A DNA stretch of 38,369 nucleotides, from assembly GCA_023659935.1 (NCBI GenBank), contig JAGXOK010000005.1, forward strand, positions 1 through 38,369, given 5' to 3'. Positions 52 to 38,346 of this stretch are shown piece by piece. Position numbers and translations under genes: made by a program. Source of the DNA: Candidatus Aenigmarchaeota archaeon LH_S6 (GTDB lineage: Archaea; Aenigmatarchaeota; Aenigmatarchaeia; QMZS01). Positions within the stretch are counted from its first letter, which is position 1. The number at the start of each line of letters is the position of its first letter. Under the pieces are notes generated by a model. It was given only the letters and a program-made list of their open reading frames with translations. It was not told the origin of the DNA and did no database searches.

Positions 52-382
52 TATTTCTGTTTGCAACATGAGTATAAATTTGTGTTGTTTGTAAATTTTT
101 ATGGCCTAATGATTGCTTAATATATCTTATATCCACTCCTGCTTCAAGTAAGTGAGTGGCAAAACTATGTCTAAAACTTCGTGGTCTTGGCTTTTTTTGC
201 TTATTCCTGCTTTTTAGTAGCATTTTTGACTATTTGTTGGACTGTTCTCTCGCTATATATTCTTCCTCTTTCTGAAATTAAAATTAAACTATACTTCTTT
301 GTTCTGTTTTCTTCCAAAATTTGTTTTAATTTCTTGTGTAAGAAAATAACTCTTTCCTTTTCTCCCCTCGTTTTTTCAAGTT
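1..382 (-). pseudogene. Tyrosine recombinase (XerA-like integrase), C-terminal remnant
   Basis: Reading the minus strand from 382 downward gives recognisable integrase catalytic-domain sequence: GEKERVIFLHKKL, then [32 protein letters not shown], and after frame changes near 180-210 [16 protein letters not shown] and [15 protein letters not shown]. The last two carry the conserved HxxR-region Arg/His, the LGH box and the catalytic Tyr of the family. An A-rich stretch around 185-205 must be crossed by at least one frameshift, probably two, so the gene is dead. The 5' side stops abruptly at a TAA next to the Nudix gene, so the N-terminal and middle thirds are missing here. A matching N-terminal piece lies at 2160-2352 on the same strand, which suggests one gene split by inserted cargo. 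The 3' end runs off the window edge. Confidence 0.85.
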
Positions 383-386
383 AATT

Positions 387-869
387 ATGACATTTAACAA
401 AAACAAAGTAAAAAAACATTTTACAGCCTCTGCTTTAATTATTAATAAAGAAGGAAAAATATTATTAGTCAACCATAAAAAATTGGGTGTGTGGCTTTAT
501 CCAGGAGGGCATATTGAGGAAGGAGAAACTCCAGATGAAACGGTTGTACGTGAAGTTAAAGAAGAAACTGGTTTGGATTTAAAAATAATTGGTAGCAGAG
601 ACAATAATTTATCTGACTCAGAGACAGATGTTTCTGTTTTATATCAACCTTATGTTATATTATGTGAAAAAATAAATGGAACTAATGAACACTATCATAT
701 AGACTTAGTTTATTTATGTGAGATAAAATGTGAAGATAATATTGAGCTATATTATAATCATAGAGAATCTCGCAGTATTAGATTTTTTGGATTAGAAGAT
801 TTAGATAATATAAAATTGTTTCCTAACTTTAGAAAACTGATTGAGAAAGTACTAAGAGAAAGGGTATAA
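387..869 (+). CDS. Nudix hydrolase
   Basis: A 160-residue protein with a complete Nudix box at about residues 41-63: GGHIEEGETPDETVVREVKE followed by ETGL, matching Gx5Ex7REUxEExGU. The glutamates of the REVKEE segment are the expected Mg2+ ligands, so catalysis of a nucleoside-diphosphate-linked substrate is plausible. The substrate cannot be told from sequence; the family ranges over (d)NTPs, ADP-ribose, NADH and capped RNA. It starts 4 nt after the broken integrase and is followed by a degenerate attC-like tract (880-1110), so it reads as mobile-element cargo rather than a core gene. No TATA box is obvious because the upstream DNA is integrase remnant. Confidence 0.9.
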   Translation: MTFNKNKVKKHFTASALIINKEGKILLVNHKKLGVWLYPGGHIEEGETPDETVVREVKEETGLDLKIIGSRDNNLSDSETDVSVLYQPYVILCEKINGTNEHYHIDLVYLCEIKCEDNIELYYNHRESRSIRFFGLEDLDNIKLFPNFRKLIEKVLRERV

Positions 870-879
870 TATTTATTTT

Positions 880-1111
880 AGATGCCCGAAAATTGACTCT
901 CACAAAAATAGAAATTTTGCTCGGCACTTCCGTGTTTGCCTAACAGCCGTTTTACGGAAAATTTACGCTTCGCCTAAAACCAGCCCTCTATGCATTTTAT
1001 TAGAGAGCAAGAGATATTGCAAGGATGTATTTAGTGGGGTTTCGTGAACTCAAGGGGACGCTGCGCTCTCGCTTCGCTCATGGCGTTGAACAGCGCTTAT
1101 ATTCAATCCGC
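880..1111 (+). other. Intergenic tract with degenerate attC-like 5' arm
   Basis: No gene is visible in these roughly 230 bases. The tract is more GC-rich than its surroundings. It holds GCCTAAC at 938-944, which fits the RYYYAAC core of an integron attC, followed by AGCCGTTTTACGG, similar in layout to the sites at 1963 and 3757. I cannot find a convincing complementary 3' arm; GTTGAAC near 1085 fits GTTRRRY but does not pair with the 5' arm. The tract lies directly 3' of the plus-strand Nudix gene, where a cassette attC would be expected. Confidence 0.3.
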
Positions 1112-1840
1112 CTACGCCTGCCTTAATAGAATTTTTGCTACTTTTTCTAGTTCTTGAGAAGAGAGTTTAATTCTTGATTCTTTATTTCGTATGTAATTAC
1201 ATAATTGATTAACTTTGAAAACAGGAACAGTTGGATTATTGCAACGCAAAATTACATTATCATGGCTAAAAACTACCATTCCCTCAACCCATAATCTTAA
1301 TGATTTATTAAATATTTTTTTTGACTCAATATACTGCTTTAATTTTAAAGCATTTCCTTTCACTTGTTTACTTGGACTTTTTATTTCGTGTTCTTCGGGG
1401 ATCTCCCATGTATCTTTATATTTATACCAATTATCTCCCTCACATCTAATTTCTCCTTCAAAATTTTTTGTTTCTATAATGAATATTCCATTAGTTCCTA
1501 AAACAACATGGTCAATATTTCCATAACACTTTGGTAAATTCACATCATTAATAAGATAATATGAATCTGGCAAATTTTGGAGGGCTTCTATAATTATCTG
1601 TTCCCCTTGTAACCCCTTACTATAATTTAAATAAGATTTAAGGAAAAACCCTCCAATTGGTAACGAAATAATAAAGATAAAAATTAGTGTAAAATTTGTA
1701 ATCAAAAATAGTGTAAAATTTGTAATCAAAAATGAGACTAAAAGTCCAAGTCCACCAATAGCAAAAAATATAATTGAAATATTTCTATGTAATTTTGCTT
1801 TCTCTTCCAAGTATGTTCCTGTTTTCTGAAGATTCTTCAT
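1112..1840 (-). CDS. NERD-domain membrane protein (nuclease-related)
   Basis: A 242-residue protein. Residues about 20-68 form two hydrophobic membrane segments. A NERD domain follows from about residue 76: GLQGEQIIIEAL, then GNIDHVVLGTNGIFIIETKN, which carries the Asp and ExK of a PD-(D/E)XK-like fold. NERD proteins are predicted nucleases seen in plasmids, phages and defence-like loci; cleavage by this one is not shown. Within the membrane region the peptide FLITNFTL occurs twice in tandem because of a 24-bp duplication (1686-1733). It lies on the minus strand between a Nudix gene and a truncated HNH gene, inside the split integrase. Spacing and base composition fit recently acquired cargo. 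Confidence 0.85.
   Translation of the reverse strand: MKNLQKTGTYLEEKAKLHRNISIIFFAIGGLGLLVSFLITNFTLFLITNFTLIFIFIISLPIGGFFLKSYLNYSKGLQGEQIIIEALQNLPDSYYLINDVNLPKCYGNIDHVVLGTNGIFIIETKNFEGEIRCEGDNWYKYKDTWEIPEEHEIKSPSKQVKGNALKLKQYIESKKIFNKSLRLWVEGMVVFSHDNVILRCNNPTVPVFKVNQLCNYIRNKESRIKLSSQELEKVAKILLRQA
1686..1733. repeat. 24-bp perfect tandem duplication inside the NERD gene
   Basis: The unit at 1686-1709 is repeated exactly at 1710-1733. Its length is a multiple of three, so it duplicates eight residues (FLITNFTL) in the membrane segment and keeps the reading frame. Confidence 0.95.
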
Positions 1841-1919
1841 ATTATTAATTGTAAATTTTCTTCTCTTTAATAACTTTCTGAACGGCAGGCCACAGCGGAC
1901 TTTGATTTTTTTGCCTTCG

Positions 1920-2015
1920 ACATTGTTGCACTAAAACTCAATCCTCACTACGTCTGAAAAACTAACAGTGATTTAACGGAAAATCCTTGCAGGAATTTCT
2001 CCAAATTTCCTAATT
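1920..2015 (+). other. attC-like 5' half-site with shared flank
   Basis: Bases 1925-1980 repeat almost exactly at 3719-3773, with three or so mismatches. The segment contains CTAACAGTGATTTAACGG (1962-1979). The next stretch, CCTTGCAGGAATTTCTCC, recurs at about 4399-4416. The left arm TAACA-GTGATT-TAA here would pair not with its own downstream sequence but with TTAAT-CAC-GA-TGTTA at 4444-4458. So this looks like one half of an attC whose other half now lies at the third site. Confidence 0.45.
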
Positions 2016-2130
2016 CTCTATGTGCTATTTCAGTTGTTGGAAATCTACAAGTGGGAATCGCACATATAGGTCCTGCTTCTACTAAGATTTGTCTTTTCAA
2101 TTCAGCAGAAATATCCGGTCTATCACTCAT
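1948..2130 (-). pseudogene. HNH endonuclease, truncated after the N-terminal third
   Basis: The first 37 or so residues (RPDISAELKRQILVEAG, CAIPTCRFPTTEIAH) match the start of a common HNH endonuclease type that continues with Trp, further Cys/His residues and the catalytic HNH motif. Here the frame runs into the attC-like repeat straight after IAH and ends 23 codons later in repeat-derived sequence (…FLQGFSVKSLLVFQT). No HNH core remains, so a nuclease function is very unlikely. ATG at 2128-2130 follows the integrase N-terminal remnant on the same strand by a few bases. Confidence 0.75.
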
Positions 2131-2159
2131 TTTATCATACCAAAAAAACTTTTATTCAA

Positions 2160-2352
2160 CAAAATCTTAAACCTGTTTGCTCTTGCTTCTTTCCAGAAGA
2201 AGAAAGTAAAACTCTCGGGAATCCTTGCTAGAATTGAGAAAATTTTTTACAATATTTATGTAGCTTTTTCCTGTTTCAAAACTATATTTCCGCAACTTTA
2301 TCTCTTCAATGAGCTTTCCAATAAAAATCTCGCTAAATAGGCGTTAAATCCA
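2160..2352 (-). pseudogene. Tyrosine recombinase, N-terminal remnant
   Basis: Minus-strand translation from about 2345 gives GKLIEEIKLRKYSFETGKSY then INIVKNFLNSSKDSREFYF, the SAM-like DNA-binding N-terminal domain of XerA/XerC-type recombinases (the usual form is LIEEIKLRKYSPKT.KSY...). It breaks down into stops and frameshifts about 60 residues in, just before the HNH start. No methionine is visible at its head, because the 117-bp inverted repeat begins at 2354. Together with 1-382 it forms the two ends of one integrase, with about 100 middle residues missing and 1.75 kb of cargo in between. Confidence 0.8.
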
Positions 2353-2353
2353 A

Positions 2354-2470
2354 TTGAGTTTGAGTTTTCGTCATCAAACACGAAGTGCCATCTAACTAAA
2401 GAATAAAAGGGCGAATTCTGACTATTTAGTATATCTTTTTAATCCACCATATCTAGTAATTGATGGACTT
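2354..2470. repeat. 117-bp perfect inverted repeat, left arm
   Basis: Identical, base for base, to the reverse complement of 3574-3690. The left arm is an inverted copy of the 3' end of the downstream transglutaminase-like gene plus 68 bases beyond its stop. It ends at CTT 2468-2470, where the arms diverge. It has displaced the natural 5' end and start codon of that gene. Confidence 0.97.
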
Positions 2471-3622
2471 CCCTTTCATTGTAGAAGATGTGGTAAATAC
2501 TTTTGTCCAAAACATAGACTTCCAGAAAACCATAATTGTCCTGGTTTGAAACAAGGAAACATATCTGAAAATTTAAGTGATAAAAGGAAAAAGTATCCCT
2601 ACAAAAAGGCTAAAAAACATTATTATGATGTTGATGAAGAGCATAAAAAAGAAAAAGCAAAAGAATTCTTTAATTCTGCTAGGAGAACATATTATAGAAT
2701 AAAAAACACTCTATTAAGCCCTTTTAGAAAATTCTCTTTTGAGAATTTATTCAAGGGTTTTTTCAAACTTCCTCTCCTTATTGGGTTGTTAATAATTTGG
2801 CTAATTATTTCAAAAATAATAAATAGCATCTTTTTAGAGATTGGTTATAGTATTGAACCCTATGGATTTTTATCATTCATTTTATTTTATGCCATTCTAT
2901 TCTTTGCACCAATCTATTTGGTTTATAGGTTCTTTACAGATATGCCTCATTATAAAAAATTCTCATATATTCTTGGTGGAATATTAAGCCTAATTGTAAT
3001 TTCATATGCTTTAAGCTGGGCTATCCCTCAAATTCCAGATACGACCTTTGAAAGAGAATTTTACATTCCGAATAGTGCAAGTTCAATAGAAGTAGAGATG
3101 AATGAATATCAATACTTATTTTACACTTCATTAAATAAAGCCCATTTTATGAATTGGATTTCTCAATTTACTATCTTTGATAAATATATTTTCAAAAAAA
3201 ATCTCCCAGCAGATATTATTCAATCTCTCAAAGAAAAATACCCTTCAAAAACTGATGACCAACTTGTTAGAGATGTTGTTTCTTTAGTACAAAATCTTGA
3301 TTATGATTATTCTAAATTAGATAGCCTTAGTTTTCAAGTTAGATTTCCATATGAAACTTTATATGAGGAGAAGGGTGTTTGTATTGAAAAGTCTTTGTTA
3401 CTATTAAGATTATTGAAAGAACTTAATTACAATACTGCACTTCTAACTTTTTATGGTGCAAATCATGCAGGAGTAGGAATCCAATGTAATAAGCCAAATT
3501 ATGAGGAATTTTGTTTCATTGAATCTACGAATTCTTTTGCTGTTGGGGAAGTTACTCCTGATCTAAGAGGAGAAAGTCCATCAATTACTAGATATGGTGG
3601 ATTAAAAAGATATACTAAATAG
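2396..3622 (+). CDS. AN1 zinc finger - membrane - transglutaminase-like protein, 5' end damaged
   Basis: The open frame runs from just after a TAA at 2393 with no ATG, GTG or TTG before the zinc finger. The first usable start, TTG 2546, would drop the finger. From codon 29 the frame reads [20 protein letters not shown] then NC, an AN1-type Zn finger. Then come a Lys-rich linker, three membrane segments (within about 2755-3030), and a transglutaminase-like domain with Cys in [10 protein letters not shown], His in [10 protein letters not shown] and an acidic third residue in CFIEST. Such domains act as cysteine proteases or acyl transferases; the target is unknown. The start was probably lost when the inverted repeat formed, so the gene may be silent or truncated. 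An attC-like site follows it. Confidence 0.75.
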
Positions 3623-3690
3623 TCAGAATTCGCCCTTTTATTCTTTAGTTAGATGGCACTTCGTGTTTGATGACGAAAACTCAAACTCAA
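3574..3690. repeat. 117-bp perfect inverted repeat, right arm
   Basis: Partner of 2354-2470. It covers the last 16 codons and stop of the transglutaminase-like gene and 68 bases after it. This arm is the original, since it continues an intact reading frame, and the left arm is the inverted copy. Between the arms lie 1103 bases. Confidence 0.97.
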
Positions 3691-3701
3691 CTTCTTCGGG
3701 C

Positions 3702-3830
3702 TTTCAGCCCTCGACAACGTTGCACTAAAACTCAATCCTAACTACGTCTGAAAAACTAACAGCAATTTAACGGTTTCGCTCGGTTGCACTCACTCTGCTC
3801 GTACTTCTCTTAATAGCGATGTTATGTGCA
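3702..3830 (+). other. attC-like recombination site (best preserved)
   Basis: The site reads TAACA-GC-ATTTAA (3757-3770) at its left and TTAAT-AGC-GA-TGTTA (3810-3824) at its right, about 68 bases apart. The outer TAACA/TGTTA and the inner ATTTAA/TTAAT pair as an imperfect hairpin, with GC opposite GC. The size and nested-box layout match integron attC sites. It lies immediately 3' of a plus-strand gene. The right part (CTTCTCTTAAT...GATGTTAT) recurs at 4438-4459. The left flank recurs at 1925-1980. The R' box GTTATGT departs from the GTTRRRY consensus. Confidence 0.45.
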
Positions 3831-3915
3831 ATATTACTCGTGGTGCCTCGCTTATCCAATCCCATTTGAAGTTATAGCAAATTTTATATACTATTTAATA
3901 CAATTTTATAATATT

Positions 3916-4344
3916 ATGTTAAAAGAATTACTTACTCCAAAAAAGAACAAAATTTTATTAGTCATTCCTTTTGCAATTCTGTTTTGGTTCTTCCCTATCA
4001 TAAGTAGAAGTATAATTGCAATTCCGTCCATTAATGTTTCATCATTAATTTTTTCTTTAATAATCAATCTTGCAATTGCATATCTTTTTAGCTGTTTAAT
4101 AATTAATAATTTAAACAACAAGAAAAAATTAATTCTAGTTATATGCATCATACTTGCGATTTATTTGTTGATACCAAAAGTTACTTCTTTTTATCTTGGT
4201 GATATGGGGGGAAAAACCAAAACCAACTGTGATTGCTATGGAATCGACTGGAGTGTAAGTTCATGCTGTCATTCTTCTGTTAATTATTGTATTGGAATTT
4301 GCAAAAGGAATGAAGATACAAGTTCTTGGGATTGGGGAGGATAA
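3916..4344 (+). CDS. Small membrane protein with Cys-rich tail
   Basis: I start it at ATG 3916, not at the upstream ATG 3826, because 3826 lies in the attC-like repeat and a TATA-like tract (around 3879-3895) sits about 30 bases before 3916. This gives 142 residues. There are three or four hydrophobic segments (about residues 15-35, 40-62, 72-92), then a soluble tail with clustered cysteines (NCDCYGIDW, SSCCHSS, YCIGICKR) that could form disulfides or bind metal. I recognise no family. It is a single-gene cassette between two attC-like sites, in the same orientation as its attC, which is the classic cassette layout. Confidence 0.65.
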   Translation: MLKELLTPKKNKILLVIPFAILFWFFPIISRSIIAIPSINVSSLIFSLIINLAIAYLFSCLIINNLNNKKKLILVICIILAIYLLIPKVTSFYLGDMGGKTKTNCDCYGIDWSVSSCCHSSVNYCIGICKRNEDTSSWDWGG

Positions 4345-4462
4345 TTTATCACTCGGCAACTCTGCGTCATACTGTCGGTCGCTTTGCTCCCTCGTTCGCC
4401 TTGCAGGAATTTCTCCAAATTTTTGCTAACGCAAAAACTTCTCTTAATCACGATGTTATACA
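4345..4462 (+). other. attC-like 3' half-site abutting pheT
   Basis: The right arm TTAAT-CAC-GA-TGTTA (4444-4458) is near identical to that at 3810-3824. The middle CCTTGCAGGAATTTCTCC AAATTT is shared with 1985-2010. The left arm that would pair with GTGATT is found at 1963, not here. The sequence 4345-4395 shows no TAACA box. The TTA inside TGTTA is the stop codon of pheT on the other strand, so the site ends exactly at the pheT 3' end. Confidence 0.4.
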
Positions 4463-6072
4463 AACAAAAACTCTACTCCTAATTCAAAGCCAACTACAGG
4501 GTTTTCAAGTTTAAAATTTTCTAAAACTTGTGGAGAAATTTCACCTATCACACCAACTTCTTTGTTATTAACGAGAATTTTCGCAACTCTTCCTTCAATA
4601 AATCTTGAGTCAAAAATCTTTTTCAATTTGTAGTTTGTTTTCAGATTTGAAAGGAAAGATTCCAGGACAGAAGAGATTTCCTCATACCCAACTGAAGAAT
4701 TAGTTATCATAGAGGAAAGAATGATTTTTTCCTTGTCTTTTCTAACAACCTTTCCAACCTCAAACACTTTCTGTGGTAGTTCATGATGTTGATTCTTTGA
4801 GAAGAAATCCAGCAGAGGAGGGATTAAGCTGGTTCTGATTTCCGTGTAGTTTTGGGAAGCTGGATTTCTGATACTGCACAGTTTTTCCTCTCTTTCCATC
4901 TTCTCGTTTTCTTCTTTTTTGTTGGTTAGGATAAATGATAAGATTTGTTGGAAACCTAAACCAATCATTACTTCTTCAACAACTTTCGAGAGTTTTTCCT
5001 TTTTGTTCTCTTCTCCAACAGTAAATATTTCCATTCCTTGAGGATAAATATTGTTGTAACCAAAAGATATTGCTATGTCTTCTATCACATCTCTTTCATC
5101 AAAAATATCATACCTGTAAGGAGGATAAACACATTCTATAAATTTGCCTTTTTGAGAGCACTCATAACCTGCCCTTCTTGACAAAGTCAAGATTTCCTTG
5201 TCACCCAAATTCAAGCCTAAGATTTTTCTCGTGTTTTCAGTACTTATTTTTGTTCTTCCTTTATCCATTACAGGATGTATTAATTTCTTATTTTTGTATT
5301 TGGTCTTCACTCTCTCAATTTTCCCTCCTCTCTCAGCAAAATCCAAAGCAAGTGAAAGTAAAGTTAAATTAACAAGTTTCTCATCTGTTCCTGTAACATC
5401 AATGAAAATGTTCTTTGTTTCTGGGTTTATTCTTCCCAACTTGTTTGAATTAATTATAGGTGGCATGGATATAACCTCTCCTTTTTTGTCAATTAAAATT
5501 GGTATTCCTTTCTTTACTAAGTGCTTATATTTTTTTCCTTTTTCATGTTTTTCCAATACTTGTTTAGGTGTCATTGATTCATTGTGTTCAAGAGGAACAA
5601 ATCTTATCTTTTCTGTTCCTAATTTGTATTCAATGTTTGGGGTAATTAAATCAAAATTTGAGATTCCTATTGCTATTTTTTCTCTTTCCCTGCCTAACAA
5701 AGAATGTAATCTCTCTTGTTTCTCCATCAGTTCCTTTATTGCTTCATCATTTAATTTAACTCCTTTAACCACGCAACAAGCAATATAAGGTCTTACTTTT
5801 TCCATCCCTCTACCAACAGAAACTTCAATATTAGAATCCTTATAACCCATTTTGGTTTTCAAGTCTAGATGGAGTTTTATTTCTCTTGCTATTCCTTCCA
5901 CGCTCCACAAGTCAGCTCTGTTAGTGTCTTTCATATCAACTTTTAAAGTATCATCATTAACTTCTTCTAGCTCCCCTTTACAAAACATTAGTAACTCATC
6001 TAATCTATCTATAGATAGGTCTCTACCAACCAGTTTTTCTAGCTCCTTCTTTGAAATTTCAATCTTTGGCAT
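4456..6072 (-). CDS. pheT: Phenylalanyl-tRNA synthetase beta subunit (archaeal type)
   Basis: A 538-residue archaeal/eukaryotic-type PheT, without the long bacterial N-terminal tRNA-binding domain. It begins with MPKIEISKKELEKLVGRDLS, has the DTNRADLWSVEGIAREI segment of the B1/B3-4 region, the B5-like DNA-binding-fold domain (HPVMDKGRTKI, PPYRYDIFDERDVIEDIA), and the catalytic-like C-terminal fold (NPASQNYTEIRTSLIPPLLD). With PheS it forms the (alpha-beta)2 enzyme charging tRNA-Phe, whose gene is also in this window (11728-11877). Its start overlaps the pheS stop by 14 bases, implying translational coupling. Its stop codon lies within an attC-like R' box, so the last residues may have been rewritten by insertion. 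Confidence 0.97.
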   Translation of the reverse strand: MPKIEISKKELEKLVGRDLSIDRLDELLMFCKGELEEVNDDTLKVDMKDTNRADLWSVEGIAREIKLHLDLKTKMGYKDSNIEVSVGRGMEKVRPYIACCVVKGVKLNDEAIKELMEKQERLHSLLGREREKIAIGISNFDLITPNIEYKLGTEKIRFVPLEHNESMTPKQVLEKHEKGKKYKHLVKKGIPILIDKKGEVISMPPIINSNKLGRINPETKNIFIDVTGTDEKLVNLTLLSLALDFAERGGKIERVKTKYKNKKLIHPVMDKGRTKISTENTRKILGLNLGDKEILTLSRRAGYECSQKGKFIECVYPPYRYDIFDERDVIEDIAISFGYNNIYPQGMEIFTVGEENKKEKLSKVVEEVMIGLGFQQILSFILTNKKEENEKMEREEKLCSIRNPASQNYTEIRTSLIPPLLDFFSKNQHHELPQKVFEVGKVVRKDKEKIILSSMITNSSVGYEEISSVLESFLSNLKTNYKLKKIFDSRFIEGRVAKILVNNKEVGVIGEISPQVLENFKLENPVVGFELGVEFLFV

Positions 6073-7291
6073 AGTAAAATGTGTCTCTCAACCATTTAAT
6101 ATTATAAGAATAAAGCTCCCTAATATCATTTATTCCAAGCTTGAACATTGCTAACCTGTCTATTCCCAGACCCCAAGCTATTACTGGTTCTTTCACACCA
6201 AAAGGTCTTGTCACTTCTTTCCTGAAAATCCCTGCTCCACCTAATTCAACCCAACCTAGTTTCTTGTGCTTCGCTGATATTTGCACAGAAGGTTCTGTAA
6301 AAGGATAATAATCAGGATAGAATTTTACTTCTTTTGCATCTGCTACTTCCTCAGCAAACTTCTTTAATAAACCTAAAAGGTGACGGAAGTTTAAATTAGG
6401 GTCCACAACAATACCCTCAAATTGATAGAACTCCAATAAATGGGTTGCATCAACAACATCAGGTCTAAACACTTTCACTAAGGAGAAATATTTTCCTGGT
6501 ATCTCCAAATTTTTCAGTTGCATAGCTGACAAAGTAGTTCCCTGGGAGATAAGAACATTTCTTTTTGCTTTATTGTAATCCCAACTATACTTCCAGCTTT
6601 CCTCATGTTCCTTCTTTACATCCTTTGCTAAATTTTTTTCCAACTCATCTTCCTTCATGTCAACATAAAACATATCATGGATATCTCTAGCGGAATGGGT
6701 TTGTGGCATGAACAAAGCATCGCAATTCCAAAACTCAGGTACCACTACCTTAGGTTCCATCTCCTTGAAACCGAGTCTTATCAATTTTTCCTTGACTTCA
6801 TCCAAAAATTTCTTGTAAGGTTGTTTCTTTCCAGAATAAATTTTCTTCCCAGGTGCTTCCACATTATAAGGCTTAAACTTCACTTTCTTCCAATAACCTG
6901 TTTTCAATAATTCAGGAGTCAGGTTCAAAACTTGTTTTCCAGCGAGCTTCTTTGCTTTCCTTTCCCTTTCTGTTATTTTCCTCACCAAATTCCTTTTAAT
7001 CAAAATTTTGGATTCCTCTTCTTTTAATTTTTCTTTTTCAGCTTTTTTTAATAGCTCTTCTAAATCATATTTTTCCTTGAGAGCCTTTTTACCTTTTTCA
7101 TTTAATTTTAATTTCCCTTCTTCTATTTTTACCCAGTTGTTTTTCTTAGCCCATTGCAAAGCAATGTTGAAGTTTTCCAATTTTTTTGCTTCATTAAAGG
7201 ATAGTTCTTTTTTCTGGAGTTTCTGAATTAAGTTTATTTCTGGTAATCCTTTTTTCAAATAATTTTGCCCTTCTTCAGTAAGTTCGTACAT
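6059..7291 (-). CDS. pheS: Phenylalanyl-tRNA synthetase alpha subunit, short N-terminus
   Basis: A 410-residue alpha subunit. Class II motifs are clear: motif 2 region (FRPDVVDATHLLEFYQFEG) and motif 3 (GLGIDRLAMFKLGI). QTHSARDIHDMF binds the amino acid and ATP. Archaeal PheS is usually about 480-500 residues, starting with a winged-helix segment before LTEEGxxYLxxGLPE. Here the frame starts at MYELTEEGQNYLKKGLPE with an in-frame TAG just upstream, so roughly the first 60 residues are absent. The DNA upstream is repeat-rich (7344-7427), so loss by insertion is possible, though lineage-specific shortness cannot be excluded. It is co-transcribed with pheT. Confidence 0.95.
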   Translation of the reverse strand: MYELTEEGQNYLKKGLPEINLIQKLQKKELSFNEAKKLENFNIALQWAKKNNWVKIEEGKLKLNEKGKKALKEKYDLEELLKKAEKEKLKEEESKILIKRNLVRKITERERKAKKLAGKQVLNLTPELLKTGYWKKVKFKPYNVEAPGKKIYSGKKQPYKKFLDEVKEKLIRLGFKEMEPKVVVPEFWNCDALFMPQTHSARDIHDMFYVDMKEDELEKNLAKDVKKEHEESWKYSWDYNKAKRNVLISQGTTLSAMQLKNLEIPGKYFSLVKVFRPDVVDATHLLEFYQFEGIVVDPNLNFRHLLGLLKKFAEEVADAKEVKFYPDYYPFTEPSVQISAKHKKLGWVELGGAGIFRKEVTRPFGVKEPVIAWGLGIDRLAMFKLGINDIRELYSYNIKWLRDTFYYAKD

Positions 7292-7343
7292 AATTATCTA
7301 AGATCAACAATATTATAGGACCCTAAATTTCTTATTCTCTTTG

Positions 7344-7427
7344 ATTTTACAGATAAAGTCCCAAAAAAGCTACTGACTTTAGTGAGGGTAGATGAATTGG
7401 GTTTAGGATAAGAGCAGTTAAAGTTTT
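7344..7427 (+). repeat. 84-bp structured dispersed repeat, copy 1
   Basis: About 85% identical to 38263-38346 in the same orientation. Both copies fold the same way: outer CCCAA (7360-7364) with TTGGG (7397-7401), then CTAC (7370-7373) with GTAG (7388-7391). The inner loop here (TGACTTTAGTGAGG) is degenerate compared with copy 2. The repeat ends in TTAAAGTTTT, followed by an AT-rich tract and an ATG. It lies between pheS and a TnpB-like remnant. Confidence 0.75.
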
Positions 7428-7440
7428 CTATATATATTTA

Positions 7441-7695
7441 TGGAGTTCTTTCTCTATAGCTGTGCTGGAGAAAGGTTAAAACTTCAGAACACTACACCTG
7501 TTAAAACCGTTGGCAACAACTAAATAAGAGGTAAGGTGCTTATACAACGAAAAAGACCAACGAGATTTAGGCTATATGTCTACTCTAGGGGAGCTATTTT
7601 GGCCCTACCCAGAACTGAGGCAGAGGCCTATAAAGAAGTCAGCAGACTTTAGGGGTTCAGAGTGCGATCTCAGAATCTCCTGACTTTAGTGAGGG
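7441..7695 (+). pseudogene. Probable TnpB (IS200/IS605) C-terminal remnant with right-end hairpin
   Basis: In one plus frame the DNA reads NTTPVKTVGNN, then after stops TEAEAYKEVSRL, resembling the variable tail of archaeal TnpB proteins that often carry TPVE and EA-rich endings. At 7679-7695 CCTGACTTTAGTGAGG resembles the subterminal hairpin found downstream of many archaeal TnpB genes; a related CAGACTTTAGGGG lies at 7646-7658. At least two stops interrupt the frame. No catalytic motif is left. The identification is tentative; it marks the point where the pheA pseudogene is cut. Confidence 0.4.
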
Positions 7696-8113
7696 AAGAG
7701 TGTAAAATGGCTCAAGAAACTTATATAACCCTCCTGGATTATTTTCAAGGTCTGCCATTAATATGGTATATTTTCCTTCCCTCATGGGATAATAAATTTC
7801 TTTTGTAATAAAAATATTTTCTTTCTCTCTCTAGTATCTAGTTCCCAAAAGATTGAATAATTATTTTTAAGATCCTGCACCCCACATTTCAGCAATTCAA
7901 GACCATAACCTTTTATTGCTTCTTCTGAGGCTATAACACCAGCGGAAGGGTTATCCAATTCGCGGACAATTTCTACTGCCTCTGCTGTACTATTTGTTGT
8001 CTTTAATTCTACACCCAAGTTCCTTAGATAATTCATAGACTGACCTAATGCTTTTGGATGAGAATAAATAACCTCTAAATTTTCTTCTTCATTATCTTTT
8101 ACCCCGCCAAGGC
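7695..8113 (-). pseudogene. pheA: Prephenate dehydratase remnant with partial ACT domain
   Basis: Minus-strand translation gives IYSHPKALGQSMNYLRNLG, TTNSTAEAVEIVRELDN, then GVIASEEAIKGYGLELL and the NNYSIFWEL segment, which is the second half of the prephenate dehydratase domain (family form: SHPxAL, STAxA, N.TRF). After a 2-base insertion in a CTCTCT run (near 7830) the frame resumes as MREGKYTILMADLENNPGG and LYKFLEPFYTL, the beginning of the regulatory ACT domain. The gene therefore lacks its N-terminal third, carries a frameshift and is cut in the ACT domain by TnpB-like DNA. The catalytic Thr of the TRF motif is Ser here (YSIF). It is a dead gene of phenylalanine synthesis. Confidence 0.85.
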
Positions 8114-8121
8114 ATTGGATG

Positions 8122-8206
8122 ATGGATAATAAATTTCTTTTGTAATAAAAATATTTTCTTTCTCTCTAGTATCTAGTTCCCAAAAGATCGAATAATTATT
8201 TTTGGT
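8122..8206 (-). repeat. Direct duplication of part of the pheA pseudogene
   Basis: About 80 bases (8122-8203) repeat 7786-7867 nearly exactly, 336 bases away and in the same orientation. This copy keeps the frame through NNYSIFWELDTREKENIF and EIYYP, lacking the 2-base insertion seen in the other copy, so it shows the ancestral reading. It fits unequal recombination or slippage during decay of pheA. Confidence 0.9.
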
Positions 8207-8207
8207 A

Positions 8208-8236
8208 TCTTTCAGTTAATGTGATATGTTAGACGT
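8208..8236 (+). other. attC-like 3' end
   Basis: CAGTTAAT-GTGATA-TGTTAGAC has the inner TTAAT and outer TGTTA boxes at the same spacing as the sites at 3810 and 4444. Its last seven bases, GTTAGAC, fit GTTRRRY exactly. No left arm remains upstream, where pheA remnant DNA begins. It marks the left border of the restriction-modification cassette. The next 200 bases (8237-8433) hold no gene I can see. Confidence 0.4.
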
Positions 8237-8433
8237 AATTAAAATGAACTCTGAAATCCCCAACCACCCACACCCTAAATTGAGAGGGGTTGCTTATAAA
8301 AAAGAAAAATCCTTCGCTTAATCTTAATAAAACAAAAGGGAAAAATAAAATTGCTTTGCAACTTTATATAATATTAGTTAAGCAGTTTCACTTCGCTACA
8401 CCAAAAGATTTTTCTAACGAGCAAGTATTCTCT

Positions 8434-9027
8434 TTATTTTAAATTCTTAAAAACTAAATAATAAATCTGATTAATTCTTATTAACCCTGGTATTTTATCT
8501 TTCTTATCTATAGGGCAGACAAATATGCCTTGAGGTTCCATCTCCTTTGCCATAATATCAAAAAGTTCAAATGCAAGTGGAAGGTATTTTTTACCGATAT
8601 AACCATCCATTATCTTTGCTATAAAAATTCCCTTATTCTTCAGGATTCTTGGAACTTCAGTTTGTAATGTAATAAGTGCCTCTGCAAATTCTTGTTCTGT
8701 CCAAAACACTTCTTCTTCATTATTTAACATTTGGTCATTTATATTGAAGTTACTGATTTTCTCTTTAAAATAATAAGGCGGGTCAAAATAAATACAATCA
8801 ATAGAGTTACTTTCTTTTTTATTTAAATAATTATTAAAATCTGCCTGGATTACATCATCAAATAATTTTCTTTTATCTACCTTCATTATTTTATAATTTT
8901 CTTTCAAATCTTTCCAGGAAAGTCCTCTACCAAAGGTAATGTCTAATATAGTGCTTCCTTCTTTAACAAAAAATTTCAATATTTTCTGAAAAACAATATT
9001 TGTTGAACCCTGATAACATGTTAACAT
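8434..9027 (-). CDS. DNA methyltransferase (DPPY type)
   Basis: A 197-residue SAM-dependent methyltransferase. Motif I (TILDITFGRG, about residues 25-34) is the SAM-binding loop, and CIYFDPPYYF (about residues 79-88) is motif IV of N4-cytosine or N6-adenine DNA methylases. It lacks an obvious target-recognition domain, so it is either a compact enzyme or works with a partner. It is divergent from an RHH regulator, a second methyltransferase and a nuclease, which together read as a restriction-modification system. Its own promoter has a TATA element at 9051-9060, giving a leaderless transcript. Confidence 0.82.
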   Translation of the reverse strand: MLTCYQGSTNIVFQKILKFFVKEGSTILDITFGRGLSWKDLKENYKIMKVDKRKLFDDVIQADFNNYLNKKESNSIDCIYFDPPYYFKEKISNFNINDQMLNNEEEVFWTEQEFAEALITLQTEVPRILKNKGIFIAKIMDGYIGKKYLPLAFELFDIMAKEMEPQGIFVCPIDKKDKIPGLIRINQIYYLVFKNLK

Positions 9028-9121
9028 ATTATAGATTGAATAAATTAGAATTTATATAACTGTTGGTAATATATAATACAATAACAAAACATTTATATAC
9101 TACTTATGTCATATTAATATT
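9028..9121. promoter_or_regulatory. Divergent promoter region of the restriction-modification cassette
   Basis: Two TATA-like elements face away from each other: GTTATATAAA on the minus strand (9051-9060) and ATTTATATAC on the plus strand (9091-9100). Each lies about 26 bases before the respective ATG, so both transcripts should be leaderless. The AT-rich core between them (9065-9090) is a likely operator for the RHH protein. Confidence 0.6.
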
Positions 9122-9268
9122 ATGGAAAATAAAAACAGAGAGACAACTAGTATAAAAATAAATCCTAAATTATGGAAGGAAATAAAAAAATATTGTATAG
9201 ATAAGAATAAAACCATCTCTGATCTTATTGAAAGATTATTAGATGAAGAATTAAAAAAGGAAGGTTAA
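9122..9268 (+). CDS. Ribbon-helix-helix regulator
   Basis: A 48-residue protein. A beta-strand (TTSIKINPKLWKEIK) is followed by two helices (KYCIDKNKTISDLIERLLDE), the MetJ/Arc/CopG layout. ISDLIERLL is typical of the second helix. RHH proteins bind operators as dimers. This one is encoded between two methyltransferases, 1 base upstream of the second, and its own promoter lies in the divergent region. By context it is the controller of the R-M genes, comparable in role to C proteins; an antitoxin role is less likely because no toxin is adjacent. Confidence 0.75.
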   Translation: MENKNRETTSIKINPKLWKEIKKYCIDKNKTISDLIERLLDEELKKEG

Positions 9269-9269
9269 A

Positions 9270-10241
9270 ATGAGTTATAAATCTGTATGGGACTTTGGAA
9301 GAGAGGGGAAAGCAAATTATAGTGTTCATGCTATTGGAGAATATCCAAGCAAAATTAGACCTATTGTTTTCGCAACAGTTGTAAATCGTTTTTCTTCAAT
9401 TGGAGATACAATACTTGATCCTTTCTGTGGTTGTGGGACATTAGCAGTAGAAGCGAAATTACAAGGAAGAAACTCCATAAATTATGATATTAATCCAAAT
9501 GCAATAGAACTTACTAAAAAAAAGTTAGATGCTTTAACAAAAGAAGAAATGGTCAAAGCAACAAATGAACTAATTAAAGATTTAGAAAAGGATTTTCAAA
9601 GTGTTTTAGGAAATGGTGATCTTAAATTTAAAAGTAAATTTAGACAAATTCAGGCACAAAAAGAGGTAAAAAAATTAAAAGAAAGATTAAAATTAATACA
9701 GCCGGATAATTCTGTTTTTCATAGGACAAAACATATTGTTGAAGTGAAAGATGCTAGAAAGTTAGAATTGTTAGATGAAAGTATTGATACAATTATAACA
9801 GATATTCCCTACGCAAGCATGATTAGATATTCAGATTTACCTAATGATTTGAGCACAATTGAAGATTATCCCAATTTTTTAGGAGAATTAACAACTTCAT
9901 TTAAAGAGATAGTAAGAGTTCTTAAAAAAGATAAATATTGTGTTATTTTTGTTGCTGATTATAGAGTTGGTGCATCAAGGAGAATTTTACCTGTTCATTC
10001 AGATGTTATACAAATAATGCAAAAATTAGGTTTGGTATTGTTTGATACTTATATTTGGAGATATTATAGAAGTGGGGGATTTAGACCCTTTGGAAAGAGA
10101 CCATTTCAAGCGATGAATATACACATTTACATCTTAGTGTTTTATAAACCTAATGGTGATGAAGAGTTGCATAAAAAAAATCGTCCTGTTAAATATAGAA
10201 AAAGATTATTGAAGAAAATGGAAAAAAACAAAGATTTATAA
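9270..10241 (+). CDS. DNA methyltransferase (N4/N6 family, TDIPYA motif)
   Basis: A 323-residue methyltransferase. Motif I is ILDPFCGCGTLAVEAKLQG (about residues 47-65) and the acidic loop is NYDINPNAIELTKKK. A 90-residue Lys-rich insert follows, then TIITDIPYASMIRYSDL, with DIPY where most DNA methylases have DPPY. The C-terminal half (RVLKKDKYCVIFVADYR, RRSGGFRPFG-like Arg/Gly segment at about 275-285) completes the fold. The DPPY-to-DIPY change may affect target-base stacking. It resembles Dam/DNA-methylase N-4/N-6 proteins more than tRNA methylases. It is co-transcribed with the RHH gene and the nuclease. Confidence 0.8.
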   Translation: MSYKSVWDFGREGKANYSVHAIGEYPSKIRPIVFATVVNRFSSIGDTILDPFCGCGTLAVEAKLQGRNSINYDINPNAIELTKKKLDALTKEEMVKATNELIKDLEKDFQSVLGNGDLKFKSKFRQIQAQKEVKKLKERLKLIQPDNSVFHRTKHIVEVKDARKLELLDESIDTIITDIPYASMIRYSDLPNDLSTIEDYPNFLGELTTSFKEIVRVLKKDKYCVIFVADYRVGASRRILPVHSDVIQIMQKLGLVLFDTYIWRYYRSGGFRPFGKRPFQAMNIHIYILVFYKPNGDEELHKKNRPVKYRKRLLKKMEKNKDL

Positions 10242-10265
10242 ATTATTTCTTAAATCTATGTATTT

Positions 10266-11471
10266 ATGAAGTCGCATGTATTTGTAGTAGATGTAGATAG
10301 CTACCCTGTACATAGGGATAGATTATTTTGTGGTGTCAAGAATCCTAATAGAATAAATGCTAGAGGAAACCCGAATTCTAGTTTTTTTGGACTTTATGCA
10401 GATATAAAGGCATTAAGAAAGGGGGATTTAGTGTTTTTTTATCAAATGAGAAAAGGAGAAGAAAAACACCTTAGAGGTTTCAGGGGTGTTTTCAAAGTTG
10501 TGAGTGATCCTTTTTTTAGTGATGAGATTATTGATGGTGTTAGTAATTCTTTTAGTAACTTAGGTTCTTTAAATAAAAAAGTTTTAGGAAGATGTCCTAA
10601 ATGTGGTAGTTCAGTTTCTGATAAGCAAAAAGATGTTAAGAAAACAATTAATGGTAGGGAACGAAAGGTTACTATAAAATATTGTCAAAAATGTGGAGAA
10701 GAATTAGATTTTCATATTTTGCCAAATAGGGTATTGATAGAGCCTTTGGTTTATTATGATGATCCTATTGATGATAATACAGCGTATATTGACAGAAATT
10801 TCATAAAGAAAAAAGGTATGTTGTGGACAATGTTATTTAGAAAAACATTTGGAGCAGGAAGAGAAAGAAGCATAACCCATATATTACCAGAAGAAACAGA
10901 GAAATTATTGTTTATGTTCAAAACATTATTCAGAGAAAAAAAGATTGATACTTCCAATCATTATAACCCAGAAGTAATGAAACCTTTGATCGTACCATTA
11001 GATACTAAAGAAAATGGAGAGCTAGTTATAGAAGCCTATTTGGAAGCATGGATGATGGAGAATATTGATAAAAATATACCTGTTCTTAAAGAAATAATTG
11101 GTCCTGTCAACCAAATAGAATACATTGGAAATAATGTCCTTTATGGTATTGGCGGAGAAAAAGTAGATGTTTTAGTATTGCACAAAAAAAATGAAGAAAG
11201 ATTTAAGGCGACTGTTATAGAACTTAAAAAAGGCAAATTAAAAAAACAAGATATACTTCAGATTGGAAACTATACCAAGTGGATGGCACAATTAGTTTTT
11301 GGAGATAATACTAAAGAATCAAAAAATAAAATTCAACCTGTTCTAATTGGATTTCAAACACCACAAGATATCATTAGTTTTGCTAGAAATTTTATAACAG
11401 ATACTCAGTCGCCGATAATTCTAAATTATAAAGTTGGAAATAATACAATAAAGTTTGAGAGGATTCTTTAG
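10266..11471 (+). CDS. Putative restriction endonuclease: EVE-like domain, zinc ribbon, PD-(D/E)XK nuclease
   Basis: A 401-residue protein in three parts. Residues 1-95 look like an EVE/ASCH-like (PUA-fold) domain: GDLVFFYQMRKGEE and GFRGVFKVVSDPFF. EVE domains in other systems read modified bases. Residues about 110-150 hold a CPKCG...YCQKCG zinc ribbon inserted in or after it. The C-terminal part has GGEKVDVLVLHKK then ATVIELKKGKL, the D-(x)n-ExK signature of a PD-(D/E)XK nuclease, resembling the NucS/DUF91 arrangement. Placed after two methyltransferases and an RHH gene, it is the likely cleavage subunit. Whether it cuts unmodified or modified DNA is open, since the EVE-like domain would suit modification sensing. 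Confidence 0.7.
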   Translation: MKSHVFVVDVDSYPVHRDRLFCGVKNPNRINARGNPNSSFFGLYADIKALRKGDLVFFYQMRKGEEKHLRGFRGVFKVVSDPFFSDEIIDGVSNSFSNLGSLNKKVLGRCPKCGSSVSDKQKDVKKTINGRERKVTIKYCQKCGEELDFHILPNRVLIEPLVYYDDPIDDNTAYIDRNFIKKKGMLWTMLFRKTFGAGRERSITHILPEETEKLLFMFKTLFREKKIDTSNHYNPEVMKPLIVPLDTKENGELVIEAYLEAWMMENIDKNIPVLKEIIGPVNQIEYIGNNVLYGIGGEKVDVLVLHKKNEERFKATVIELKKGKLKKQDILQIGNYTKWMAQLVFGDNTKESKNKIQPVLIGFQTPQDIISFARNFITDTQSPIILNYKVGNNTIKFERIL

Positions 11472-11727
11472 AAAATATTTTTCTGATGCTCCTTTAGTTT
11501 TTAGAACATTTTGTCTGCTTCGCAGGATATCATTAAAAGCACTCCTTCTTTATTTTATTTAGAAATTTCGGCGGTTCCCACCGTCCTATTGTTCTTTTTA
11601 ACTTCTCCGTTCACTTGTAGTTTACTCTGTCTAAATTTCTCCTACGACAAACTTCGGTTAATGCGATATGTCAACTAACTTCTTATTTTCTCTTTGGAAT
11701 GATAAGTATAACAATAAAGGGTTGAAA
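11472..11727 (+). other. Gene-free tract with degenerate attC-like palindrome
   Basis: No gene is visible. GGATATCATTAA (11528-11539) and TTAATGCGATATG (11658-11670) form the ends of a possible long hairpin about 140 bases across. The right end has the same box order as the other attC-like sites (TTAAT, three bases, GATATG), but the final TGTTA is TGTCA. It lies 3' of the nuclease gene in the same orientation, so it would be the cassette's own attC. Weak on its own; it gains weight from the series. Confidence 0.3.
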
Positions 11728-11877
11728 TGGGAAGGGCGTGATTTCCAACAACATCTGCTTTTTTGGGTGCAGACCTTTTGACCAATTTGGCCAATAAAGG
11801 GTTGCTTTGAACACGCGACATCATGGTCTTCAACCATGCGCTTTTGGTTTTAAACTCCCAGACTGAGCTACCTTCCC
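11728..11877 (-). tRNA. tRNA-Phe (GAA) with D-loop and T-loop introns
   Basis: The exonic parts fold as a full cloverleaf: acceptor GGGAAGG/CCTTCCC with A73, D-stem GCTC/GAGC, anticodon stem CATGG/CCATG with loop TTGAAGA (anticodon GAA), variable ATGTC, T-stem GCGTG/CACGC with loop TTCAAAT. To obtain it, 12 bases (11843-11854) must be removed from the 3' side of the D-loop and 64 bases (11745-11808) from the T-loop, leaving 74 nt. The T-loop intron boundaries are ambiguous by three bases because AAA occurs at both ends. GCAAC/GTTGT at the intron ends can form the central helix of a relaxed bulge-helix-bulge. No anticodon-loop intron is present. The gene lies 26 bases after infB on the same strand. 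Confidence 0.88.
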
Positions 11878-11902
11878 ATAATCTTATTAAGATATTTTAA
11901 AT

Positions 11903-20580: not shown

Positions 20581-20645
20581 GTGACATCCTCCACCACCAA
20601 ATTGATTTTTGGAAGTGGCTTCCAACGATGAAATTATGCTATTGA
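20581..20645 (+). repeat. Integrase 3'-end repeat, copy B
   Basis: Bases 20581-20631 are the exact inverse of 1-51. Translated on the plus strand they give [16 protein letters not shown], followed by KLCY and a stop at 20643-20645. No other part of an integrase is upstream here; the DNA before it (20464-20580) is the rps28e promoter side. The copy lies next to a TnpB remnant. Confidence 0.9.
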
Positions 20646-38262: not shown

Positions 38263-38346
38263 ATTTTACAGATAAAGTCCCAAGAAAGCTACCGACTTTT
38301 AGTCGTGTAGATGGATTGGGTTTAGGATAAGAGTATTTAAAGTTTT
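38263..38346 (+). repeat. 84-bp structured dispersed repeat, copy 2
   Basis: Matches 7344-7427. Its fold is complete here: CCCAA (38279-38283) with TTGGG (38316-38320), CTAC (38289-38292) with GTAG (38307-38310), CGACT (38293-38297) with AGTCG (38301-38305). The inner part resembles the GACTTTAGTC hairpins at the right ends of IS605-type elements. It ends in TTTAAAG-T7 and is followed by an AT-rich tract up to the window edge. Confidence 0.75.

Follow-up and report, generated by a model that had tools for sequence, protein, structure and literature searches.

Positions 53 to 4460 of the window appear to hold a ruined integron, whose intact relatives would use the integron mechanism under the control of a XerA-like recombinase; judged from sequence comparison, this reading has a probability of about 0.85. 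The window, which is the whole stretch of DNA that was analysed, comprises all 38,369 bp of contig C55 in a draft genome of the archaeal phylum Aenigmatarchaeota of 728,758 bp (63 contigs, ~71% complete). Its PheS is 97% identical to the PheS of 'Candidatus Aenigmarchaeota archaeon LH_S7', which a genome search assigns to another genus of the same family, and because PheS, PheT, and eIF5B lie beside the sites on this one contig, the window is no stray bacterial contig. (It should be kept in mind that every genome compared is a draft assembly; the survey of the class covered 156 genomes and that of recombinases 40 fetched loci.)

A preliminary description of this DNA had proposed a decayed integron-type cassette array that lacks an integrase. 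The array itself is supported by covarying stems, an attI, integrase fragments, additional sites, and cassette units that have moved, and both covariance-model matches and further copies of the sites were found. The missing integrase has to be corrected: a Xer-type integrase is present in broken form, as fragments together with an attI.

Integrase fragments and attI

Where no integron integrase had been thought to be in view, tblastn finds two pieces of a clade B XerA-like integrase on the minus strand, at 53-380 and ~2150-2325. The C-terminal fragment (53-380, ~residues 153-261) is matched with E values down to ~1e-33. It contains a Phage_integrase domain above the cut-off at 59-316 (-), its DNA match of ~70% begins at 52, and it is frameshifted between 199 and 222; in the tblastn alignment it spans the point of the IntI insertion and has no insertion there. 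The N-terminal fragment of the same integrase (residue 16 to ~58; ~2150-2325; E ~1e-16) matches, at the DNA level, the coding region of loci L212 and L218. The best match of the pieces is to clade B, at 65 and 79% identity. The middle of the integrase is missing, and 381 to ~2145 occupies its place.

An attI of the clade B type lies at 2315-2356 (+), with the recombination point G^TT between 2343 and 2344. It was detected with model R3, a sequence-only model of clade B sites from whose training the window's genome was excluded (29.2 bits, E 3.4e-8); it is also the best match in the whole genome, and the next-best match in the window has an E of 0.2. The attI overlaps the integrase fragment because the intervening leader has been deleted. 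It heads a series composed of the transglutaminase-like gene, an attC, the membrane-protein gene, and a half-attC.

attC-like sites in the window

An attC is defined by fixed outer boxes and by variable, paired inner boxes. The places in the window that had been described as sharing such a box order are confirmed in part: there is one complete site, there are three halves (near 938, 1963, and 4444) and a junction at 8228, and 11528-11670 is unsupported. The complete site, placed at 3757-3824 with a length of ~70 bases, is borne out as a 75-bp attC at 3754-3828 (+), with G^TT between 3821 and 3822 and scores of 62.3 bits with model R1 and 51.1 bits with model R2 (R1 was trained with this site included, and both models contain sites from the window's genome). 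It is called degenerate because its bottom strand, folded as a single strand, is not more stable than shuffled versions (z = +0.86); at other loci, seven attC sites give z values of -1.5 to -6.3.

Near 938 and 1963, a genome pattern search and model matches identify left halves rather than complete sites. The first (937-960, +) was found by the pattern search and has the outer box GCCTAAC and the inner box CCGTTTTACGG; 937-1006 gives a weak model match (15 bits, E 2.5 with R2). The second (1957-2036, +) has a degenerate right side. Its positions 1959-2036 score 26-28 bits with R1 and R2 (E 0.005-0.035), and 1913-1979 is 91% identical to 3707-3773 by self-BLAST. The pattern TAACAGN{2,5}TTTWACGG occurs five times in the genome, at 941, 1963, and 3757 of the window and once each on contigs C21 and C60, and its reversed control does not occur at all.

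At 4444-4458 the pattern search upholds a right half, but the left half is absent. This half-site (4395-4460, +; G^TT between 4455 and 4456) stands before PheT, and comparison with its intact homologue, the EEP (endonuclease/exonuclease/phosphatase) cassette, suggests that the left half was lost by deletion between two CCTTGCAGG repeats; window positions 4362-4407 are 93% identical to the 3' region of that cassette. The right-half pattern TCTTAATN{2,6}TGTTA has four matches genome-wide, split equally between the window and contig C63; its reversed control has three.

The place at 8215-8232 has a right half and a true junction, but it is not a complete attC and is matched by no model. From 8227 on, a 222-bp stretch matches the first integron cassette of a genome in another family (G081, family f19) at 84.7% identity. 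Because of this downstream match, the junction, a G^TT between 8228 and 8229, is taken as a real cassette end whose preceding site has decayed, and 8221-8448 (+) is a remnant cassette. The claimed site at 11528-11670 (+) has a right arm that by eye resembles the attC right arms of relatives; it, too, has no model match. Both 8215 and 11528 were rejected as complete attCs, neither being matched by the models. A strict scan of the window for unbulged TAAC/GTTA hairpins gave no excess over shuffles; it accepts only inner stems that are close to perfect, and those of the window sites are not.

As previously proposed, a gene is followed by a site in three cases (Nudix, transglutaminase-like, and small membrane protein), but this order is not seen near 1963 and 8228: the gene before the former is encoded on the other strand, and no intact gene precedes the latter. 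The restriction-modification genes (8434-11471) have no complete attC. The Nudix hydrolase gene (387-869, +; Pfam NUDIX, 68 bits) has a homologue in LH_S7 that is followed by one complete attC; comparison of the 5' end of the gene with the R'' box of its attC gave no match, and no cassette start was found. The NERD-domain nuclease-related gene (1112-1840, -; Pfam NERD, 82 bits) is 66% identical in DNA to locus L115, and a homologue sits within an attC-bearing region of LH_S7. The AN1 zinc finger/transglutaminase-like cassette gene (2444-3622, +; Pfam zf-AN1 and DUF553) is cut at its 5' end. The small membrane protein gene (3916-4344, +), known from the ORF list, lies in a cassette whose start, GTTATGTGCAATATTACTCG, differs little from that of the EEP cassette on contig C63. 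Separately, a truncated frame at 1990-2140 (-), EAGPICAIPTCRFPTTEIAH, looks by eye like an HNH endonuclease-like fragment fused to attC sequence.

Probable decay and rearrangement

The original order of the locus can be proposed to have been integrase (-), attI, transglutaminase-like cassette, attC 3754-3828, membrane-protein cassette, attC (~4444), and chromosomal PheT. A 1.8 kb segment with the Nudix gene, a half attC, the NERD gene, and a second half attC has most probably come to interrupt the integrase gene since then, and this gene has lost its start codon, leader, and middle. The window's own copy of the integron is probably dead.

Part of this disorder may be artefactual. A perfect 117-nt inverted repeat has its left arm at 2354-2470 (+), where it is an inverted copy of the 3' end of the transglutaminase gene, and its right arm at 3574-3690 (+); it truncates the 5' end of the AN1/transglutaminase-like gene. 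At the contig edge, outside the integrase, the 51 bp at 1-51 are 100% identical by self-BLAST to the reverse complement of 20581-20631. These two perfect repeats may be assembly or amplification artefacts, and the joining of one of them within a gene and the position of the other at the contig edge would suit the idea that the disorder in 53-2470 is a chimera of assembly or whole-genome amplification and that the true genome is more intact here. The frameshift in the C-terminal integrase piece speaks against this idea, as does a second, likewise broken recombinase on contig C63, since both fit real decay. A chimera is on balance rather unlikely; it would be compatible with a ruined integron at 53-4460 and bears only on the degree to which this copy is broken. 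The 117-nt repeat also contains AAGGGCGAATTC (2407-2418 and 3627-3640), which may be a coincidence or a sign of an artefact; this motif also occurs at the insert edges of cloning vectors.

Comparison with LH_S7 and contig C63

In LH_S7 a single complete attC lies between Nudix and PheT, and the window is ~3.4 kb longer between the same two half-sites. The breakpoint between the two at the Nudix gene is not at R', and one simple insertion does not account for it. The restriction-modification genes at 8434-11471 are not in LH_S7, where PheS adjoins eIF5B.

Cassette units occupy different places in the related genome. Between the window's genome and LH_S7, the EEP unit and its attC agree at 97% identity, but the surroundings differ: hydrogenase-maturation genes adjoin it in one genome, and gltX is nearby in the other. 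Identity stops at the GTTAT core at both ends, and the unit is a moved cassette bounded at G^TT. A cassette with an M23 peptidase gene (L129 664-1752 and L136 1617-2705) is likewise found in both genomes, with different upstream neighbours and a near-identical preceding attC.

Contig C63 carries the second recombinase mentioned above, whose best match is to clade A2 (75-83%). The order on this contig is an A2-type attI, hydrogenase-maturation genes as the first cassette, an attC, EEP, and another attC. The first cassette of this broken A2-type integron (L012) is apparently hypC-hypD-hypE, an unusual multi-gene housekeeping cassette.

Recombinases at the heads of arrays

The preliminary description had suggested searching the genome for an IntI-type recombinase with its extra motif. 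None was found: although the integron-integrase family model TIGR02249 has matches in 89 of the 156 genomes, none of these reaches its cut-off, and the enzymes present are XerA-like instead. The good matches break off near model position 180 and restart near 237. Positions ~183-236 are skipped because the stretch between the KDR/KER and HxLRH motifs is short, with an aligned spacing of 53-61 residues versus 66 in XerD and 100 in IntI1 (the IntI1 reference sequence matches plasmid records at 100%). The IntI-specific additional domain was looked for in the integrase and is not there. Among solved structures, XerA (5hxy and 4a8e) comes nearest, followed closely by IntI4, and by its best solved relatives the integrase belongs to the XerA sequence family.

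Around the 40 recombinases, 19 of 21 attC matches with E<=0.01 lie upstream of a divergent recombinase gene, which is the layout of an integron. Most of the linked recombinases fall into two clades of a quick tree, A2 (support 99) and B (support 100). When the count is limited to recombinases whose contig extends at least 1 kb upstream, an attC is linked to 10 of 13 in A2 and B versus 2 of 12 others (Fisher p = 0.005, for a grouping chosen after the tree was seen). Three of the 13 well-placed recombinases of A2/B are without a significant attC. For many other recombinases, the contig breaks off on the array side after no more than a few hundred bases, an expected effect of repeated arrays.

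Each clade also has its own attI. In clade B, the DNA that separates the recombinase from the first cassette contains a common sequence that ends in TCGCTTAATAGTTG^TTA and diverges just past G^TT; in clade A2 it contains a common inverted repeat that ends in ATG^TTA. An attI thus placed stands at the array head beside the integrase gene. Matches of the clade B type (E<=1e-4) are present in 25 genomes of the class, and in several of these they are followed by same-orientation attC arrays. An attI-like core, GTTTAATAGTTG^TTAGAC, also lies between two genes with no adjoining recombinase (G000:C2:5177-5203, L255).

It is conceivable that the arrays are CALINs (clusters of attC sites lacking an integrase) whose cassettes are shuffled in trans by a canonical IntI encoded elsewhere, and that the XerA-like genes are unrelated dimer resolvases that happen to lie nearby. 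We know of no attC recombinase other than canonical IntI, which would favour such an arrangement, and LH_S7 has many attC sites and no recombinase match, so some arrays do exist without a recombinase. In addition, the archaeal arrays surveyed by Ghaly et al. 2022 are mostly CALINs (PMC9668308). However, a recombinase over the IntI cut-off was found in 0 of 156 genomes, and it is two clades in particular that stand divergently at array heads with clade-specific attI sequences, other XerA clades being almost unlinked. Shuffling in trans is on this evidence unlikely.

Structure of attC across the class

A covariance model built from ten sites of two genomes, the window's and LH_S7, found sites on which it had not been trained, on C18 of the window's own genome and on C3, C8, and C44 of LH_S7. 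Model searches place attC sites in 54 of the 156 genomes of the class. The sites have conserved R boxes, complementary variable L boxes, and a hairpin. Some have clearly different inner boxes, such as GGATAAAAG with CTTTTATCC instead of GATTAAG with CTTAATC, and across 15 sites seven of the nine pairs of the inner helix have changed on both sides. Among 29 sites near recombinases, the outer AAC and GTT are almost invariant, and the L-box helix is 93.8% paired, again with two-sided changes at 7/9 pairs. The covariation score of these 29 sites is 0.367, compared with 0.110 (sd 0.016) for shuffles, which retain relatedness, and <=0.070 for slid alignments.

When applied to 43 other genomes, the attC model left 38 empty. 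Of the five positives, two duplicate class members in their site coordinates and two are Woesearchaeota; the fifth is a spirochaete, in which there are eight matches. The spirochaete has a full IntI that scores 397 bits, over the cut-off; the archaea-trained model therefore detects attC in a bacterium that has a true integron integrase. (The attCs of class 1 plasmids are not matched by the attC model, as is expected of one trained on a single lineage.) This spirochaete (G171, L057) has, besides its true IntI and attC, several XerA-like recombinases, and is a possible meeting point of both systems.

Cassette ends

If cassettes are excised as circles at G^TT, then the 5' bases of a cassette must at one time have lain opposite its own attC's R'' box. 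In a first set of 20 cassettes, 12 match perfectly at five variable positions, and 79/100 positions agree versus 46.1 (sd 4.4) after permutation; a second set of 29 again has 12 perfect cassettes, with 108/145 versus 63.5 (sd 5.6). A count as high was reached by 0 of 50,000 permutations in each set, and perfect matches in the combined sets number 24/49. Within the sites as now arranged, the R'' match is perfect in only 1/24 and 1/39. The match between cassette start and outer box is the mark of cassettes that were once circular. Cassettes bounded at G^TT with a 5' end complementary to their own R'' are found at other loci; those of the window have lost their left ends or left half-sites.

The poor conservation of the boxes in the window and the poor folding of its site might suggest ordinary intergenic repeats, hairpin terminators, or chance boxes with no role in recombination, but this very improbable explanation is refuted in the main by the covariation and both sets of cassette ends, and the precision of the moved-cassette boundaries and the linkage to attI also stand against it.

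Proposed mechanism and relation to known integrons

From the structure of the sites, their boundaries, the attI, the divergent recombinase at the head of the array, and the missing IntI-specific domain, all of them read directly from the sequence as described above, a mechanism can be proposed for the intact relatives. The attC would fold as a single-stranded hairpin, the presumed substrate, and the XerA-like tyrosine recombinase would be the enzyme that cuts at G^TT. Cassettes would then exit as circles and re-enter at the attI or at another attC.

An element of the window's type would work like an IntI-type integron, with which it has in common the conserved outer and covarying inner boxes of attC, an attI by a divergent integrase, cassettes of a gene followed by attC, and G^TT. 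It differs in that its integrase lacks the IntI-specific domain, which the survey in PMC9668308 demanded. As this defining feature was sought and is absent, the element is not classed as an IntI-type integron. The rules of IntegronFinder would probably call the window a CALIN, or miss it; however, the window has an attI and integrase fragments, and where a CALIN has two or more attC spaced by less than 4 kb, away from any integrase, there is here one complete site with several halves. The closest solved relatives of the integrase, the archaeal XerA proteins (5hxy and 4a8e; PMC8371274), have the same spacing and no IntI insertion, but they are described as chromosome-dimer resolvases, whereas for the clades found here the linkage is to attI and attC arrays.

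Integrons in nine archaeal phyla, with attCs named in Aenigmatarchaeota, have been reported by Ghaly et al. 2022, who also found that IntI1 can use archaeal attCs (PMC9668308). Integrases were identified in that work by the IntI-specific domain, so the enzymes described here would not have been counted there, and the text of the survey contains neither the attI types nor the integrase clades seen here. The review of archaeal tyrosine recombinases touches on integrons only briefly (PMC8371274). According to Messier and Roy 2001, as cited in PMC9668308, the IntI-specific domain is needed for activity. No report of Xer-type integrons was found in the literature searched, the scope of which left out preprints and most subscription papers. 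Archaeal integrons have thus already been published, but Xer-type ones are new within that literature.

The comparisons make it rather probable, though less so than the reading of the window itself, that Aenigmatarchaeota have a distinct class of integrons of XerA type, with at least two clades and attI types of their own, in which folded attC is recombined without the IntI-specific domain; this domain would then not be generally required. At present an integron integrase is defined by it, and current software demands it. If Xer-type enzymes do run these integrons, surveys have labelled complete integrons as integrase-less, and the origin of the integron integrase from a Xer resolvase becomes a directly testable question.

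Other features of the window

An Rfam search of the window gave no matches, including none for the dispersed repeats at 7344-7706 and 38263-38346, which share 85-89% identity within the contig and 88% with positions 283-410 of L136 in LH_S7. A sequence at 11805-11880 (-) has, on visual inspection, the look of a tRNA gene with an intron and is absent from the output of a bacterial-mode tRNA search. A prephenate dehydratase gene fragment is present at 7782-8036 and 8124-8203, with a partial duplicate that is 96% identical.
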